From Actinomycetota bacterium (GTDB taxonomy: Bacteria; Actinomycetota; Acidimicrobiia; Acidimicrobiales; Ilumatobacteraceae), in the NCBI GenBank assembly GCA_005787035.1, contig SYCI01000021.1, positions 1 through 35,969 on the forward strand: 35,969 bases of DNA, given 5' to 3'. Of this stretch, positions 591 to 9,741 are shown one piece after another. Both the position numbers and the translations under genes were made by a program. The notes below the pieces were generated by a model, which saw nothing but the letters and a program-made list of their open reading frames with translations, was not told the origin of the DNA and did no database searches. Position 1 is the stretch's first letter, and each line of letters starts with the position of its first letter.

Positions 591-884
591 ATGGACTCCT
601 CCCCCTCGACCGTCCCGACCGAGTCCGCGTCGGATGCCGTGCGTCTCGGCCCGAATGAACTAGCCGTCTTGCAGGTGTTTCTGGACTCCGGGAACCGGGT
701 GGTGAGCCGACTCGAAATCGCCCGCCGGGCTGGATTGGCCGAAATGAACGAAAGGCGTTGCGACTCGATCCTCGTATCGCTGCGGCGGGTCCTTGGCTCC
801 GAGTCGATCCGCACGGTTCGTGGTCGGGGCTGGATGCTCGAAATCGGTGCCGTCGAGCTCGCCCACCACCTCGTCACCGCCTGA
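591..884 (+). CDS. Stand-alone winged-helix DNA-binding protein (OmpR/PhoB C-terminal type)
   Basis: A 97-residue protein made almost only of a winged helix like the effector domain of OmpR/PhoB response regulators. The fold runs from LGPNELAVLQVFLDSG (about residue 19) through the recognition-helix region (DSILVSLRRVLG) to the wing (IRTVRGRGWML, ending near residue 83). There is no receiver domain, so phosphorylation control is not expected. It probably binds DNA, and its target may be its own operon or the neighbouring ammonium genes (inference). The start is fixed by a leaderless -10 seven bases upstream. It ends 10 bases before the antiporter start, so the two are very likely co-transcribed. 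Confidence 0.75.
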   Translation: MDSSPSTVPTESASDAVRLGPNELAVLQVFLDSGNRVVSRLEIARRAGLAEMNERRCDSILVSLRRVLGSESIRTVRGRGWMLEIGAVELAHHLVTA

Positions 885-894
885 CGGCGAGAGA

Positions 895-2865
895 ATGAAC
901 GACATGTCCATGATCGCCGCCACCGCGGGCTCGTACGACCTCGCTCTGGTCCTCGGCAACCTGTTGCTGATTCTGGTGATCGCGCGCGTCGCCGCCGAAC
1001 TCGCCGAGCGCGTGAAGGTTCCGCCGGTACTCGGCGAGATCGTGGCCGGCATCCTGATCGGCCCCTCGGTGCTCGGTTGGGTCGACCCGATCGCCCATCT
1101 CGAGATCGCCGACATGGTTCTGCTCATCGGCGAGATCGGCGTGATCCTGTTGCTCTTCCAAGTAGGTCTCGAAATGGACCTCGGCGAATTGAAGAAGGTC
1201 GGGCGATCGGCGGTTCAAGTCGGCGTGATCGGAGTCGCTGCCCCCTTCGCTCTCGGCCTCGGAGTAGCGAGCGCATTCGGTGAAACCGGCAAGATCGCAC
1301 TCTTCATCGGCGCCGCCCTGACCGCTACGAGCGTGGGCATCACCGCGCGCGTCCTCGGTGATCTGCGTGCGCTGTCCACCAAAGAGGCACGCATCGTGCT
1401 CGGGGCCGCAGTGGCCGACGACGTGCTGGGTCTCGTGATCCTCACGGTGGTCGTCAAGATCGTCACCGAGGGGACGATCGGACCCGGTGTGGTGTTCGAG
1501 ACCATCGGACTCGCCGTGGGCTTCCTGCTCGTGACCGGCCTGCTGTCGGTGTTCGTGATTCCGAAATTCCTCGATCGTCTGCACAGCCTCGCAAAGTCGT
1601 CGACCACCGTGGTGGTGGCCGGCTTCGCGCTCACCGTGGCGTTCTCGTTGCTCGCCAATCAGGCCAAATTGGCTTTCATCATCGGTGCCTTCATGGCCGG
1701 ACTCGGCATCGGACGCAGCGCGCAACACGAGCGCATCGCCGAAGGACTCAACCCGCTCGGGAACGTGTTCATTCCCGTCTTCTTCGCATCGATCGGCATC
1801 AACGCCGACCTCGAAGCCATGTTCAAGCCCCACGTTCTCGCGCTGGCCGGTTGTCTCACCGTCGTGGCGGTGATCGGCAAGCTCGTGTCGGCGTTCGGCG
1901 TGAACGGATCCGCGGACCGCGTCCTGATCGGCTTCGGAATGATCCCGCGGGGCGAAGTCGGATTGATCTTCGCGTCGATCGGCCTGAGCAAAGGCGTACT
2001 CGACAAGGATCTCTACGGCGCGCTGCTCGTGATGGTTCTCCTCACGACGCTCATGACGCCGCCGATGCTCACCGCGCGTCTCCGTCGTACCGGTGTCGCC
2101 ACAGACGTCGATACCACACCCATCGAACACGAACCCGAAGGCGGCTGGCTGCAGGTCCGCGACGACCGAATGGTGCTCGTCGGTTCGCCACCGGTTTCGC
2201 TCACGGTCACCCTCGCGCTTCGAGCGGCCGAATTGTCATCGATCCACTCGGTCGACGACGGCGTGTTCGATTGGTTCGGTTCACATCGCACCACTCGTCT
2301 CGAGTGGCGGCCGGCCGACACCGAGCAACTCCTCGCCCTACTACGCGATGGATCACCCAAGTCGTGGCGCACTCTCTCCACCACCGGTGTGATCGAACGC
2401 GCGCTACCCGAAGTCGGCCGCAGTATCGATCGGCGGCGGGTCGATGCCGAACACATGGATGGCTCGCACGTGTTTCATCTTCCTCGCGTCGATCGAGTAC
2501 GCGAACTCAACGGTTCACCGGGCATCGAACCCACCTTCGACCGGCTGTACGCGTCGCTCGAGCATCCGGATCTACTCACGCTCGCCGTGTTCGTGTCGGA
2601 CGCGACCGACGACGGCCGCGACGCCGTGTCACTCGCCGAACGGCTTCGTCGCAGTGACTCACGAACCGTGATGAGGATCCTCGGACTCGCCGACGCTGTC
2701 GCTCTCGCCGCTCGCGGACCTGACATCTCGGTCGACGATGTGCTCGCGCGGGTCGACGATCCGCAGATCGCCCGCGCGGCCATGGCGCTTGCCCTCGCTT
2801 CGACCGTCGACACCGTGCACGCCGCCCTCGACGAGGCCGGTCGGGACCTGCTCGACGAAGACTGA
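895..2865 (+). CDS. CPA2 cation:proton antiporter with a C-terminal GlnD-like domain
   Basis: Membrane antiporter expected to exchange K+ or Na+ for protons. Residues about 10-395 form the Na+/H+ exchanger domain: the PPVLGEIVAGILIGPSVLGW entry motif, the ion-binding acidic pair Asp175-Asp176 in VADDVLGLVIL, and the late motif IPRGEVGLIFASIGL. KefB/KefC relatives end in a nucleotide-binding RCK domain. Here residues about 416-656 instead resemble the linker and HD region of GlnD: TGVIERALPEVGRS (from about 496), SHVFHLPRVDRV, HPDLLTLAVFVSDATDDG (from 557) and VDDPQIARAAM (from 620). The HD metal ligands look lost, the FHD of GlnD being VSD here. There is no nucleotidyltransferase or ACT domain. 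The ATG at 895 was chosen because it follows GGCGAGAGA and gives a normal N terminus. 656 residues. It sits between the winged-helix gene and amt-glnK. Confidence 0.88.
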   Translation: MNDMSMIAATAGSYDLALVLGNLLLILVIARVAAELAERVKVPPVLGEIVAGILIGPSVLGWVDPIAHLEIADMVLLIGEIGVILLLFQVGLEMDLGELKKVGRSAVQVGVIGVAAPFALGLGVASAFGETGKIALFIGAALTATSVGITARVLGDLRALSTKEARIVLGAAVADDVLGLVILTVVVKIVTEGTIGPGVVFETIGLAVGFLLVTGLLSVFVIPKFLDRLHSLAKSSTTVVVAGFALTVAFSLLANQAKLAFIIGAFMAGLGIGRSAQHERIAEGLNPLGNVFIPVFFASIGINADLEAMFKPHVLALAGCLTVVAVIGKLVSAFGVNGSADRVLIGFGMIPRGEVGLIFASIGLSKGVLDKDLYGALLVMVLLTTLMTPPMLTARLRRTGVATDVDTTPIEHEPEGGWLQVRDDRMVLVGSPPVSLTVTLALRAAELSSIHSVDDGVFDWFGSHRTTRLEWRPADTEQLLALLRDGSPKSWRTLSTTGVIERALPEVGRSIDRRRVDAEHMDGSHVFHLPRVDRVRELNGSPGIEPTFDRLYASLEHPDLLTLAVFVSDATDDGRDAVSLAERLRRSDSRTVMRILGLADAVALAARGPDISVDDVLARVDDPQIARAAMALALASTVDTVHAALDEAGRDLLDED

Positions 2866-2871
2866 TCGGCA

Positions 2872-2890
2872 CCAGTTGGTCACCAACTGG
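2872..2890. repeat. 19-bp inverted repeat (9-bp arms, 1-bp centre)
   Basis: CCAGTTGGT-C-ACCAACTGG, perfect over both 9-bp arms, starts 7 bases after the antiporter stop. The right arm overlaps the GlnR-type box. It may act as a repressor operator or a short hairpin after the antiporter gene. There is no T-tract. Confidence 0.6.
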
Positions 2891-2916
2891 AAACAATTCC
2901 AAGACCGACCCGAAAT
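2879..2916 (+). promoter_or_regulatory. GlnR-type nitrogen box upstream of amt1
   Basis: The sequence reads GTCAC-N6-GAAAC-N6-AAGAC-N6-GAAAT. The known Streptomyces/Mycobacterium GlnR site alternates gTnAC and GAAAC half-sites every 11 bp. The first two half-sites match exactly, the fourth differs by one base and the third is weak. Lying about 100 bp before an ammonium transporter, it is a good candidate for control by a GlnR-like regulator. No glnR gene is in the window. Confidence 0.6.
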
Positions 2917-3012: not shown

Positions 3013-4551
3013 ATGATCACCAGATCACGGGCTGGCGCTTCACCGGCGGCAGTCGATCACTTCCCCGATCTCGTACGGAAGCGACCTTCGTTCCTGCGCA
3101 GATTCCTCATCGCCACCGCCATCTCATCGGGAGCGGTACTCGTCGCCGGTGGCGGTGCAGCTCTCGCCGCCGACGAATTCGATGCCGAGGGTGCCATCAA
3201 TTCACTGGCCACGGCCACGAACCTCCTGTGGGTGATCCTTGGAGCGTCACTCGTGATCTTCATGCAGGCCGGCTTCGCGCTCGTCGAAACCGGCTTCTGC
3301 CGCGCCAAGCACGCGGCCCACGTGGTGGCGACCAACTTCGCCATCTTCGGCCTCGGCTTCATCGGCTTCTTCTTCATCGGCTTCCCGTTGGCCTTCGGCG
3401 GCTTCAGCTATTCGGCTTTCGGACTCGATGCACCGATCGGTGGTTCGCTGGTCGGAAGCGGCGAGTGGGTGTTCCTGTGGAAGGGCGGCTGGGCGCTGTC
3501 GGGTGGCGGAATCACTCCGGCCCTCATCGGTTTCTTCCTCTACATGGTCGCCTTCATGGACACCGTGGCCACCATTCCGACCGGCTCCATGGCCGAACGT
3601 TGGAAATGGGGTTCGTTCGTGGTGTGGGGCTTCTTCTGCGGAGCGGTCTACTACCCGCTCATGGCGGCGTGGACCTGGGGCGGCGGCTGGTTGTCGCAGA
3701 CCTGGAGCAGCATGAACCTCGGCGCCGGTTACGTCGACTTCGCCGGATCGGGTGTGGTGCACGCCGTCGGTGGTGTGGCGGCCTTCGCCGGAGCCAAGGT
3801 GATCGGAGCTCGCATCGGCAAGTTCGACAAGGACGGCAACCCGCGCGCGATTCCCGGCCATCACATCCCGATGGCCATGCTCGGCACCTTCATCTTGTTG
3901 TTCGGCTGGTTCGGCTTCAACGCCGCATCGACCTTCGCCGCGACCGATGTTCAGTTCGCCGTGGTGGCCACCAACACCGCAATCGCCGGTGCATTCGGAG
4001 GAGTGGTCGCGATGTTCTGGATCACCAAGCGGACCGGCAAGCCCGATCCGGGCATGATGGCCAACGGCATGCTCGCCGGTCTGGTGGCGATCACCGCACC
4101 GTGTGCCTTCGTGGCACCGTGGGCGGCCGCCGTGATCGGTTGCATCGCCGCCGTCCTCGTGATCGAGTCGGTGTTCTTCGTGGAGCGCACGTTGAAGCTC
4201 GACGATCCGGTCGGCGCGATCAGCGTGCACGGCGTGGGCGGAATGTTCGGCACGTTGTGCGTCGGAATCTTCGCCAACGGTTCGTACGGTGCCGGCTGGA
4301 ACCTGTCGGACAGCGAAGGTGTCGAGGGCATCATCAAGGGCGACTGGGGCCAACTCGGAGCACAAGCACTGGGTGTGGCCGTGATCATCGTGGTCCTCGG
4401 TGGCATCTCGTACTCGTTCTTCAAGATCCAGGACACGATCTCCAAGAAGATGGGCAAGGGCGGTATCCGCTCGAGCGAAGAAGACGAAGTCATGGGACTC
4501 GATCTTCCGGAAATGGGTGTGTACGCCTACCCCGAGTTCGTCAAGAGCTGA
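3013..4551 (+). CDS. amt: Ammonium transporter (Amt), first copy
   Basis: Trimeric inner-membrane ammonium channel. At 512 residues it is longer than bacterial AmtB because of a charged N terminus and a hydrophobic segment (about 30-50) ending ALA-ADEF, which looks like a cleavable signal peptide. Conserved features: FMQAGFALVETGFCRAKH (83-100), the ammonium-site Asp242 with the first pore histidine His250 in DFAGSGVVHAVGG, and the second pore histidine His406 in ISVHGVGG. About eleven membrane helices follow the signal. The cytoplasmic tail has the GLDLPEMGVYAYP motif by which GlnK and trimer coupling act in Amt proteins. The ATG follows AAGGAGAA. A glnK starts 24 bases after its stop, and a GlnR-type box lies upstream. 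Confidence 0.95.
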   Translation: MITRSRAGASPAAVDHFPDLVRKRPSFLRRFLIATAISSGAVLVAGGGAALAADEFDAEGAINSLATATNLLWVILGASLVIFMQAGFALVETGFCRAKHAAHVVATNFAIFGLGFIGFFFIGFPLAFGGFSYSAFGLDAPIGGSLVGSGEWVFLWKGGWALSGGGITPALIGFFLYMVAFMDTVATIPTGSMAERWKWGSFVVWGFFCGAVYYPLMAAWTWGGGWLSQTWSSMNLGAGYVDFAGSGVVHAVGGVAAFAGAKVIGARIGKFDKDGNPRAIPGHHIPMAMLGTFILLFGWFGFNAASTFAATDVQFAVVATNTAIAGAFGGVVAMFWITKRTGKPDPGMMANGMLAGLVAITAPCAFVAPWAAAVIGCIAAVLVIESVFFVERTLKLDDPVGAISVHGVGGMFGTLCVGIFANGSYGAGWNLSDSEGVEGIIKGDWGQLGAQALGVAVIIVVLGGISYSFFKIQDTISKKMGKGGIRSSEEDEVMGLDLPEMGVYAYPEFVKS

Positions 4552-4914
<363 letters not shown>

Positions 4915-5134
4915 TCCGACGGATCCAACAGAGCTCGTCGGCCGCGAGGTCGACAGCGTCGGAGGGTTTCCCTCTCCGGTAGGGGCAGTCCCCGGGCTAC
5001 TGGTATCGGCGATACAGCCGAACCGGCGGTCCGGGGACGTCCGCGTCCGGGTTCACGATCACGTTGTCGGAAGGAAACATTTCGGAAACATGTTTCGTCA
5101 ATTCTTTCCGGCACCCCCTACCGAAAGGAATTCG
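4915..5134 (+). promoter_or_regulatory. Structured 220-bp gap before the second amt, with GAAAC repeats
   Basis: This is the largest gap in the window. It holds a chain of stem-loops: GAGGG-TTT-CCCTC (4962-4974), CCGGTAG/CTACTGG (4976-4982 with 4997-5003, one G-U pair) enclosing GGGG-CAGT-CCCC, and GTATC-GGC-GATAC (5003-5015). Downstream are two GAAAC half-sites exactly 11 bp apart (5074-5078 and 5085-5089), preceded in phase by TTCAC (5052-5056). The second GAAAC is half of the 12-bp palindrome GAAACATGTTTC (5085-5096). It is probably a terminator or attenuator after glnK1 plus a GlnR-like promoter for amt2. Both roles are inferred. Confidence 0.5.
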
Positions 5135-6686
<1,552 letters not shown>

Positions 6687-6715: not shown

Positions 6716-7453
6716 TCAGTCGGAAAGAGCGGCGGCGAAGTCGTCGATGAACGCTTCGAGTCCGGTGCGTTGCGGGTCGAAGATCGGGAGCGCGTGGAGA
6801 CCGGCGTTGGCGAGAAGACGCTTCTCGTTGAGAACCCATCGGCGACCGTCGGCCATGCGTCGGTGCGCTTCCTCCATGGCGGCCCGGGTGAGATTCCCGA
6901 TGGTTGCCGTCGCATCGCCGCGCCGCGCGTGCATGCGTGCGTAGTCGAGGGTGAAGTCGCGCTGGAATCCCCAACGACCGGCGGCTTCGCGGGCCAACTC
7001 TTCCGGATACGTCGTATCCAATTGGAGCGCACCGGTGAGGACGACCGAACTCGCGACTTCGGCCAACAACGTGTACGACGGGAATCCGGCGAGGTATCCG
7101 AGAAGTTGGTCCACCTCGTAATCACCTCGGCGAGCGCGCGTCGACCAGTCCTCCACGACGTCGAGATCACGAAGGATCACGTCGATCTCGACCCCGTCGA
7201 CGGCGAGCCATGCCCCACCGTTCATGAACCGACCCCATGAACCGGGCGGATGGACCGTGCCGAGTTCGGCCAAGGCTCCGAGATCGAGGTCTCCTCGGTA
7301 GAAGACGCCGAGATCCCAATCGCTCGCCTCGTCGGCGTCACCCGTCGATCGCGAACCACCAAGGGTGACCGCCACGACTCCTTGCGATCGGGTGACCACA
7401 TCGAGCACCGTGGCGACGACGTTCGGTAGTGGAGATGCAGGATCGGTCGACAT
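6716..7453 (-). CDS. Nucleotidyltransferase of the Pol-beta superfamily
   Basis: Predicted cytoplasmic nucleotidyltransferase of 245 residues. The diagnostic metal-binding pattern is clear: GGSRSTG (32-38), then Asp45 and Asp47 in SDWDLGVF, and a third acidic residue, Asp91, in GVEIDVILRD. This resembles minimal or antibiotic-type nucleotidyltransferases (DUF4037-like). The C-terminal half is helical. The substrate is unknown. The ATG overlaps the stop of the upstream molybdenum hydroxylase by one base (TGATG), so translation is probably coupled. A role in cofactor or substrate modification for that enzyme is possible but only inference. An upstream in-frame ATG would place 15 residues inside the previous gene. 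Confidence 0.75.
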   Translation of the reverse strand: MSTDPASPLPNVVATVLDVVTRSQGVVAVTLGGSRSTGDADEASDWDLGVFYRGDLDLGALAELGTVHPPGSWGRFMNGGAWLAVDGVEIDVILRDLDVVEDWSTRARRGDYEVDQLLGYLAGFPSYTLLAEVASSVVLTGALQLDTTYPEELAREAAGRWGFQRDFTLDYARMHARRGDATATIGNLTRAAMEEAHRRMADGRRWVLNEKRLLANAGLHALPIFDPQRTGLEAFIDDFAAALSD

Positions 7454-9741
7454 CACACGGCTTCGCGGATCGCCTGCCACACGCGCTGTGGCGTGCACGG
7501 AAGATCGACGTGCGCCACACCGAGGTGCGACACCGCGTCGACGACCGCGTTCTGAACCGCCGGGGTCGCACCGATCGTCCCGCTCTCACCGATGCCCTTG
7601 GCGCCGAGGTCGTTCATCGGTGACGGCGTGGCGAGGTGCACGGTCGTGAAACTCGGGACCTCGGCCGCCGACGGAAACCCGTAGTCGGCGAAGTTGCCCG
7701 TGAGCGGATTGCCGTCGGTGTCGTAGATGACTTCCTCGAAAAGTGCCTGGCCGATGCCCTGTACGAGCCCGCCGTGAACCTGACCTTCGGCGAGCAGAGG
7801 ATTCACGATGTTGCCGGCGTCGTCGACCGCCACCAATTCGCGCAGCACCGTCTTGCCGGTTTCGACATCGACTTCGACGACCGCGATGTGCGCGCCACTC
7901 GGAAAGGTTCCTCCGGCCTGCGCGAAGTCACCCTCACCGTCGAGAACCTCACCATCGGCCCGCGCCGCCGACACAACATCGGTCCACGACTTCGACACCG
8001 CTGGAGTTCCGGCCACATGGAATCGACCGTCTTCGAGGACGATGTCGGCTTCGGCGGCTTCGAGAAGTCGGGCCGCGATCCGCTTGGCCTTGTCGGCCAC
8101 CACACCCGCGGCGCGCCACACGTTGGTGCCACCGAGTTGCACCGAGCGCGAACCGCCGGTGATCTCGCTGCTGCGCACGAGGTCGGTGTCGCCGTGAATC
8201 ACGGTGACGTTCTCGAACGGGATACCGAGGCGATCGGCCACGATCATCGCCCACGTGGTGCGATGACCCTGTCCGTAGGGAGTGGTTCCGGTGACCACCC
8301 GCGCCGTCGGCTCGCCGGCCGCGTTCTCCCCCACTTCGACGATGCCGAGTTCGGATCCGCCCGACATGGCCGTGATCTCCACGTAGACCGCGAGGCCGAT
8401 ACCGAGCTGCACACGATCGCCAGTCGCGCGTCGACGGGATTGCTCGGCCCGCAGGTTCGCGTAATCGGCCGCCTGCAACACGAGTTCGAGGGCACCCGGA
8501 TAGTCACCACTGTCGTAGGTGGTCCCGGTGGCGGTGGTGAACGGGAATCGATCCTTGGCGATCAGATTGCGACGGCGAACCTCGACCGGATCCATGCCGA
8601 TCTCGCGCGCGAAGAGATCGACTGCTCGTTCGATGGCGGCCGCCGCCTCGGGCCGACCCGCCCCGCGATAGGCGACCGTCGGCACGGTGTTGGTCACCAC
8701 ACCTCTCGCGCGCATCGCTGCGTTCGGGATGTCGTAGGTGCCGGTGAGCATCGCGCCGGTCATGAACGGCAGAAAGGCCCCGAAACGTGGATACGCGCCC
8801 GACTCCTGGATCACGCTCAACTCGTAGGCGAGGATCTTGCCGTCACGGGTTCCACCGATGCGCAGATCCTGGATCTGACCACGACCGTGGCCGAGGCCAT
8901 TCATGCTCTCGCTTCGCGTCTCGGTGTAGCGAACCGGTCGATCGGTCTTCCTGGCGAGCCACGGAACGAGCAGATCCTCGGGATAGAAGAACGCCTTGGC
9001 GCCGAATCCGCCACCCACGTCGGGCGTGATCACACGGATCTGCTCGGCCGGGACGCCGTAGAACGCGCTGATCTGATTGCGAATCGGATGCGCACCCTGA
9101 CACGCCTGCCAATGGGTGAGGCGGCGTACACCCGAATCATCGGGTGCTTCCCAACGACTGGCCGCCACGCGCGCTTCGAGCGGACTCGGCGCGATACGGC
9201 GATTGTGCAAGCGCGCCGACACGACCACATCACACACGGAGAAATCGACTTCGCGTCCGGCCGGCAGGTCGACGACGACGTTGCTTCCGTGTTCGGGGAA
9301 GAGCAGGGTCGACGACGCAAGCGCCTCCTCCGGATCGACGAGCACGGTCAACGGTTCGTAATCGACGATGACTTCGTTGGCGGCATCGACGGCGAGAGCA
9401 CGACTCGTTGCCACCACCGCGGCCACCAACTCACCGACGTATCGGACGACACCATCGGCGAGCGCGGGACGCTTGATGCCCGCCGGCAGAAACGGCATGT
9501 CGATCGGGACCGGACCGATGCCGTCAGCCACGAGATCGGCGTGGGTGAACACGCCATGCACACCCGGCATCGACCTCGCACTCTCGATGTCGATCGAGGA
9601 GATCCGCGCGTGGGCCATCGTCGAGCGCACGTACACGACATGGAGTGCACCGTCGAGAACGAGGTTGTCGATGAAGGTCCCGTGCCCGGTCACCAAGGCC
9701 GGGTCCTCGGTACGAACCACACGTTCACCGATCATGCCCAT
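7453..9741 (-). CDS. Xanthine dehydrogenase-family molybdopterin subunit, CoxL form II type
   Basis: Large molybdenum-binding subunit of an aerobic carbon monoxide dehydrogenase/xanthine oxidase-family hydroxylase, 762 residues. An a/b hammerhead domain (about 15-125) precedes two molybdopterin-binding domains. The loop AYRGAGR (357-363) is the form II signature; true CO dehydrogenases carry the AYxCSFR form I loop. The catalytic glutamate is Glu719 in GAKGIGESGTIG. Residues ITPDVGGGFGAK match the conserved cofactor-binding glycine stretch. The ATG follows GGGGGA. The FAD (CoxM) and iron-sulfur (CoxS) subunits are not adjacent, so they must be elsewhere or the protein uses another partner. 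The substrate cannot be predicted beyond an aldehyde or N-heterocycle. Confidence 0.9.
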   Translation of the reverse strand: MGMIGERVVRTEDPALVTGHGTFIDNLVLDGALHVVYVRSTMAHARISSIDIESARSMPGVHGVFTHADLVADGIGPVPIDMPFLPAGIKRPALADGVVRYVGELVAAVVATSRALAVDAANEVIVDYEPLTVLVDPEEALASSTLLFPEHGSNVVVDLPAGREVDFSVCDVVVSARLHNRRIAPSPLEARVAASRWEAPDDSGVRRLTHWQACQGAHPIRNQISAFYGVPAEQIRVITPDVGGGFGAKAFFYPEDLLVPWLARKTDRPVRYTETRSESMNGLGHGRGQIQDLRIGGTRDGKILAYELSVIQESGAYPRFGAFLPFMTGAMLTGTYDIPNAAMRARGVVTNTVPTVAYRGAGRPEAAAAIERAVDLFAREIGMDPVEVRRRNLIAKDRFPFTTATGTTYDSGDYPGALELVLQAADYANLRAEQSRRRATGDRVQLGIGLAVYVEITAMSGGSELGIVEVGENAAGEPTARVVTGTTPYGQGHRTTWAMIVADRLGIPFENVTVIHGDTDLVRSSEITGGSRSVQLGGTNVWRAAGVVADKAKRIAARLLEAAEADIVLEDGRFHVAGTPAVSKSWTDVVSAARADGEVLDGEGDFAQAGGTFPSGAHIAVVEVDVETGKTVLRELVAVDDAGNIVNPLLAEGQVHGGLVQGIGQALFEEVIYDTDGNPLTGNFADYGFPSAAEVPSFTTVHLATPSPMNDLGAKGIGESGTIGATPAVQNAVVDAVSHLGVAHVDLPCTPQRVWQAIREAV

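Follow-up and report, generated by a model that had tools for sequence, protein, structure and literature searches.

The closest described relatives of the gene treated here lie on two sides, membrane transport and nitrogen sensing. On the first are NapA of Thermus thermophilus, a Na+/H+ antiporter of the CPA2 family, and KefC and KefB, which exchange K+ for H+ and are likewise CPA2 antiporters with a cytosolic C-terminal regulatory domain, as described in PMC11150392. On the second are GlnD, whose ACT domains are considered its glutamine sensors, and the plant ACR proteins, putative amino-acid sensors which likewise have ACT domains of the GlnD type (both after the account in PMC3173338). This study focused on a gene that joins the two sides, found in a stretch of 35,969 nucleotides from an Actinomycetota genome (contig SYCI01000021.1), the whole of which is referred to as the window. 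Its product begins with a NapA-like CPA2 antiporter and continues, in the same reading frame, into a module that matches the part of GlnD downstream of the nucleotidyltransferase domain. The genome that holds the window (2.19 Mb in 166 contigs, 77.5% complete; the window is contig C157) carries a separate GlnD over the cut-off elsewhere.

What the fusions have in common with GlnD, the bifunctional PII uridylyltransferase/uridylyl-removing enzyme, is a linker, an HD-like body and, in the majority of the relatives, two ACT domains, all in the same order; they differ in having an antiporter instead of the nucleotidyltransferase, in having lost the HD ligands, and in forming a separate clade. Likeness to NapA extends over the whole antiporter domain, including the paired aspartates (DD), an equivalent of K305 and the stretch ATSVGITARVL of the fourth transmembrane helix (TM4), but the solved NapA chains (385-394 aa) stop at about the point where the antiporter domain of the window protein stops, and have no C-terminal module. 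KefC and KefB differ more, since they have RCK domains and a QD motif, whereas the fusion has DD and no RCK domain, and similarity to them amounts to only 50 bits. The pairing of amt with glnK likewise sets an ammonium transporter beside a nitrogen-status protein, and the fusion and glnK both adjoin the first amt gene, but in the fusion the transporter itself carries the GlnD-derived module. The plant ACR proteins have no transporter domain and, to our knowledge, no HD-like part. We know of no GlnD-derived regulatory module on any transporter, and the nitrogen control of transport known to us goes through PII proteins, for example GlnK acting on Amt. No description of an antiporter-GlnD fusion was found in the open-access literature searched, and the protein is best called a variant of the C-terminally regulated CPA2 antiporters.

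The antiporter domain and the GlnD-derived module

The reading frame is uninterrupted by stops, and its first part matched PF00999 with 220.7 bits (cut-off 26.2). The nearest solved structure by sequence was NapA, at 191.8 bits against 50.1 bits for KefC. Residues D175, D176 and K329 align with D156, D157 and K305 of NapA and are the same in all 18 aligned fusions, as are A144, T145 and S146 of TM4, within a stretch identical to that of NapA. The NCBIfam model of the CPA2 family, TIGR00932, scored 187.2 bits, under its cut-off of 238.3, and the Kef models were missed by far (KefB, 72.1 against 804 bits; KefC, 68.5 against 752 bits). No RCK (TrkA-N) domain was matched by Pfam in the window protein at E-values up to 10. 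Two acidic residues together with a lysine mark electrogenic CPA2 antiporters in the account of PMC6181914, and a QD motif is given for KefC there and in PMC11150392. The antiporter is thus NapA-like and, from its DD and lysine motif, is predicted to carry out electrogenic Na+/H+ exchange, the choice of Na+ as the transported ion following from the likeness to NapA. A reading made earlier from the sequence only had called the domain a KefB-type CPA2 antiporter for K+ or NH4+; membership of CPA2 holds, but the KefB-type identity was rejected on the scores above, and the substrate is a prediction. Several unfused CPA2 genes of the fusion-bearing genomes also lie in long stop-to-stop frames, of about 900-1340 aa (G018:C25, G018:C65, G197:C11, G250:C85, G143:C50).

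Past residue 392, over about 250 residues, a Pfam scan of the window protein gave no match. The GlnD family model TIGR01693 matched residues 468-569, with an E-value of 2.2e-4 in the whole protein and 3.7e-5 (22.1 bits) in the C-terminal part alone; its curated cut-off of 519.4 bits was missed by the window protein (19.6 bits) and by the best fusion (128.7 bits). A HMMER profile made from 21 true GlnDs of the order did not detect the window's C-terminus by itself, giving it 1.7 bits, less than the 5.7 bits reached by shuffled sequences. The family gave a much clearer picture. When the C-termini of 20 fusions, the window's included, were compared by hhalign with 21 GlnDs, the probability was 99.9 (E 3.5e-35, 437 columns), and it was still 96.9 (E 1.9e-10, 226 columns) when the comparison was limited to columns present in the window protein, against 0.1 (E at least 0.4) for five column-shuffled controls. 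TIGR01693 was matched at E-values of 1e-3 or better by 19 of the 20 fusion C-termini (best 1.2e-38), in several of them continuously from model position 364-373 or so to 842-847. A segment with the pattern EPxGGW, downstream of the nucleotidyltransferase domain in GlnD, is common to the fusions and the true GlnDs of the order, and in the fusions PF00999 takes the place of that domain. By these comparisons the C-terminal module is a homologue of the part of GlnD that follows the nucleotidyltransferase domain, a point settled by the family, the window's copy alone being a weak match; the homology was accepted despite that weak score because family profiles and relatives match GlnD. The sequence-only reading had proposed the same origin from a series of conserved blocks, all of which were located at the matching positions of GlnD, and the profile searches led to GlnD instead of to an unrelated fold.

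The HD-like body appears to be catalytically dead. The histidine of the NAYH motif is present in 1 of 20 fusions, that of VDRH in none, that of FHD in one, and the second histidine of the HH pair in two, compared with 21 of 21 GlnDs in every case; the aspartate of FHD, also found in 21 of 21 GlnDs, persists in 16 fusions and is glutamate in the other four. Judged from these alignments the HD metal ligands are lost across the family, as the sequence-only reading had stated for the window's copy. Sensing may survive. Among the ACT-bearing fusions the glycine of the loop between beta1 and alpha1, described in PMC3173338 as the ligand-site turn, is retained in 17 of 18 first and 16 of 18 second ACT domains. 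In the window protein, which is shortened, the two ACT domains aligned in 18 of the 20 are missing, and no remnant of them was found 3' of the gene, other frames included (best E 0.21). The protein of genome G108 stops at nearly the same point of the alignment, ahead of the ACT domains, and no remnant of them was found downstream of it either.

Distribution and ancestry of the fusion

When the C-terminal part alone was searched against 298 genomes of the window's order (E-values up to 1e-3), 23 of them matched, namely the window's own, 21 others with a fusion, and G151, which was dropped as spurious (E 6.6e-4, a response-regulator frame). Antiporter and module share a single frame in all 21 relatives, four of which are ended by a contig edge (L004, L013, L016, L022); the remaining 17 have stop-to-stop frames of 730-1012 aa, and 16 of these (881-1012 aa) reach the region of the two ACT domains. 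The usual order of domains is antiporter, GlnD linker, HD-like body, ACT, ACT, and Pfam placed ACT above its cut-off in five of six relatives scanned.

Contigs of named genomes were scanned with a profile of ten relatives, which gave 53 loci, 11 of them shared with the order search; the window protein itself as query gave no match there. As the search profiles were built from the window's order, more distant fusions could have escaped. The two parts share a frame in 49 of the 53 loci, the exceptions being L130 and L173 (both ended by a contig edge), L175 and L161. At L175 (4617-7508) a single in-frame TGA separates the antiporter from the GlnD-like part, by natural split, decay or assembly error. 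L161 (7407-11876) holds a module with no antiporter, in a stop-to-stop frame of 683 aa that is immediately followed by a full-length GlnD frame; since it is nested within the fusion clade, it has probably lost its antiporter. The titles of the 53 loci name Actinomycetota, Actinobacteria or Actinomycetes, many of them acidimicrobial, with one titled Acidobacteria whose contig has the same length (62,863) as G188:C99 of the window's order. A sample of 396 genomes of the phylum added two verified fusions from outside the order, G336 and G322, each next to amt, and one stand-alone module, in G338. This last (L202, 6533-8137) is an HD/ACT-like protein with no antiporter and no amt or glnK match nearby, placed at the edge of the fusion clade. 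Among the lower-scoring matches of the phylum sample, 15 loci were inspected; 13 had the GlnD nucleotidyltransferase and none an antiporter. Plasmid records were matched by the antiporter part, and none of the 231 matching records reached 80% cover of the query. The fusions were found here only in Actinomycetota.

In a phylogenetic tree a single branch (SH-aLRT 100) separated 22 fusions and two stand-alone modules from 31 true GlnDs, a grouping that makes the fusion family look like an old paralogue of single origin and not a recent accident. The tree was made by a quick method with midpoint rooting, and the placement of the window and G108 copies, which have long branches (1.59 and 1.57), is uncertain.

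Neighbouring genes and regulation

The fusion gene is followed by two amt-glnK pairs (Table 1), as the sequence-only reading had stated, and next to the second glnK lies a gene for a small protein with an NTP_transf_2 nucleotidyltransferase domain (6719-7495, minus strand).

Table 1. Position of the fusion gene, its parts and its neighbours in the window
Feature	Position	Strand	Evidence and remarks
Winged-helix (Trans_reg_C) protein, 97 aa, no receiver domain	591..884	+	PF00486 E 1e-7; ends 10 bp before fusion
Fusion gene: NapA-like CPA2 antiporter with GlnD-derived C-terminal module, without ACT domains	895..2865	+	656 aa; open reading frame, family matches, relatives
Antiporter domain, residues 26-392	970..2070	+	PF00999 E 3.6e-65; NapA 4bwz E 1.9e-55
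GlnD-derived module, residues 410-656: linker opening with EPxGGW, degenerate HD-like region	2122..2862	+	hhalign; order search, best non-self match E 1.1e-30
Direct TIGR01693 (UTase_glnD) match, model positions 371-476	2296..2601	+	residues 468-569
GlnR-box-like tandem site between fusion and amt1	2879..2916	+	GTnAC-n6-GAAAC twice, 15/18 positions
amt1, ammonium transporter of the type adjoining the fusion in relatives	3013..4551	+	PF00909; TIGR00836, TIGR03644 below cut-offs
glnK1 (PII)	4576..4914	+	PF00543 E 2.8e-32
amt2, ammonium transporter, start codon unsettled	5090..6334	+	PF00909 E 2.2e-119
glnK2 (PII)	6348..6686	+	PF00543 E 7.3e-33

Linkage to nitrogen genes recurs in the relatives and is not random. 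In the neighbourhoods of 20 relatives (G025, on a short contig, was left out, and L040 is ended by a contig edge) an amt1-like gene stands beside the fusion in 15, glnK in L043, and neither in L037, L039, L040 and L046; glnK was seen in three of them only (L043, L044, L049). Within 5 kb of the 53 loci from named genomes amt was present in 40, the antiporter-less L161 counted, and glnK in 29. The other PF00999 genes (E-values up to 1e-20) of 22 fusion genomes served as a control, the rows being compared by eye: amt lay within 10 kb of 15 of 20 fusions and of none of 32 unfused antiporters (Fisher p 3.5e-9), or of 14 of 20 against 0 of 32 (p 2.2e-8) when a partial amt of G250, seen by tblastn only, was left out. 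The shortness of many contigs restricts the unfused control group as well. Conversely, 20 amt1 loci with no adjoining fusion, 19 from genomes with no fusion match and one from another contig of G012, had a CPA2 neighbour in no case and glnK in ten.

In 30 of the 53 loci a homologue of the winged-helix gene that ends just before the fusion lies no more than 300 bp from the fusion frame; such a gene is also found upstream of amt1 in G251, a genome of the same genus that has no fusion. It is possible that its product is a dedicated regulator. Between the fusion and amt1 lies a tandem site resembling the GlnR box, for which PMC3087709 gives the consensus gTnAc-n6-GaAAc. It was the sole match in the 36-kb window, where 0.01 was expected and one of 100 shuffles contained one. 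In 51 of the relatives' loci (L173 and L181 excluded) there were 26 such matches between -150 and +750 bp of the 3' end of the fusion, spread over 23 loci, with 28 loci having none there, and one match in the remaining 647 kb; with eight shuffled consensuses there was no more than one match in either part. The pattern and the stretch were fixed once the window's site and the first matches were known, so that the test is partly post hoc. The GlnR-like sites, taken as sequence motifs, support nitrogen control of amt and glnK. The fusion may be transcribed separately, together with the winged-helix gene.

How the antiporter may be controlled

The explanation we favor, with a probability of about one half, is that the antiporter is gated directly by an amino-acid sensor derived from GlnD. 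In this family a NapA-like cation/proton antiporter has taken the place of the nucleotidyltransferase half of a GlnD; the ACT pair would bind an amino acid, most likely glutamine by analogy with GlnD, and the dead HD body would relay the ligand state to the transporter dimer. The module would dock on and off the transporter, as has been proposed for the RCK domains of KefC, whose C-terminal ligand-binding domain inhibits the transporter by contact in the account of PMC11150392. Cation/proton exchange would thereby be tied to nitrogen status beside Amt, with no need of PII as middleman, and the probable output would be to adjust cytosolic pH and the balance of cations while ammonium is taken up and assimilated.

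Several observations weigh against direct gating by such a sensor. Glutamine as the ligand is argued by analogy, and ACT domains bind various amino acids. The window's copy has no ACT pair and may have lost ligand sensing; because the pair is missing, this copy is probably constitutive, or controlled via the remaining HD-like part or another partner, and the case for nitrogen sensing is stronger for the family than for it. In 13 of the 53 loci neither amt nor glnK lies within 5 kb (L131, L134 and L175 have 6-8 kb on both sides; in the remaining ten one side is shorter than 5 kb), and both are also absent near the fusions of G108, G186 and G012. The same-genus genome G251 has the window's cluster minus the fusion, in the order winged helix, amt1, glnK, amt2, glnK; the fusion is therefore dispensable there, and seems to be gained or lost as a whole. 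Finally, the fusion lies upstream of the window's GlnR-like site, and may thus be outside that regulon.

A rival explanation is that the module is a sensing-dead scaffold or remnant, on a constitutive antiporter whose linkage to amt reflects shared expression only. We regard this as unlikely, although it has to be taken seriously for the window's ACT-less copy, which like that of G108 has a long branch. In every one of 18 members the antiporter is better conserved than the GlnD part; the ratio of C-terminal to N-terminal identity in the window protein, 0.556, is nevertheless inside the family range of 0.543-0.708, near its low end, so that with the ratio in range, yet the branch long, relaxed selection on its module is not clear. 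Retention of the ACT loop glycines and the persistence of the architecture beyond the order both speak for a working module.

The sequence-only reading had suggested that gating responds to nitrogen status or to PII. In the full form of the PII proposal, the module would be a docking platform for GlnK; modified or not, GlnK would bind the HD-like part and thereby control the antiporter, as it does Amt. Since PII is what GlnD acts on, a PII surface could have survived on the HD body; glnK is near more than half of the 53 loci, and what the window retains is precisely the HD-like part and two glnK genes, not the ACT domains. Three genomes that are 97, 98 and 96% complete (G232, G186 and G018) nonetheless have the fusion and Amt but neither a PII match nor a GlnD above the cut-off, and glnK stands in so few of the 20 neighbourhoods of the order. 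These are metagenome-assembled genomes in which gaps are possible, a caveat on the missing PII. Because they keep the fusion, docking of PII does not look obligatory: PII as an obligatory signal across the family is unlikely and seemingly not required, and docking as the sole mechanism was demoted to an improbable explanation.

In another proposal the transported ion is ammonium (or K+) and not Na+, the protein serving opposite Amt as a relief valve for NH4+/H+ that is opened by glutamine. Its position next to amt would suit such a role, and AmhT of Bacillus pseudofirmus is a CPA2 member that moves NH4+. We have little confidence in this proposal, as the DD and lysine motif and the A-T-S of TM4, invariant in the aligned fusions and identical to NapA, follow the electrogenic CPA2 pattern, KefC having QD (PMC6181914, PMC11150392), and the identity with NapA in TM4 would point to selectivity for Na+. 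An artefact, whether by frameshift, chimeric contig or chance resemblance to GlnD, would accord with the low direct scores of the window's copy (22 bits, and 1.7 bits with the GlnD profile of the order) and can be set aside, given the same fusion in 49 of 53 loci from many assemblies and profile-profile probabilities of 96.9-99.9; chance resemblance was rejected on that comparison with its shuffled controls and on the relatives that share the fusion.

Direct gating by a GlnD-derived sensor would have a wider consequence, which is put forward tentatively, as something we would not yet bet on: that there are ion transporters gated directly by a glutamine sensor of this origin, through which a cell would read its nitrogen status at the membrane and tune cation/proton exchange beside Amt, bypassing PII altogether, and that in some lineages this is the sole surviving part of the GlnD/PII pathway. 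If true, a conserved antiporter with the catalytically dead sensor half of GlnD would connect amino-acid status directly with the balance of ions and protons. Because the module occurs with no uridylyltransferase, and in some genomes with no detectable PII, the family allows a test of whether the HD/ACT half of GlnD works by itself as a glutamine switch.

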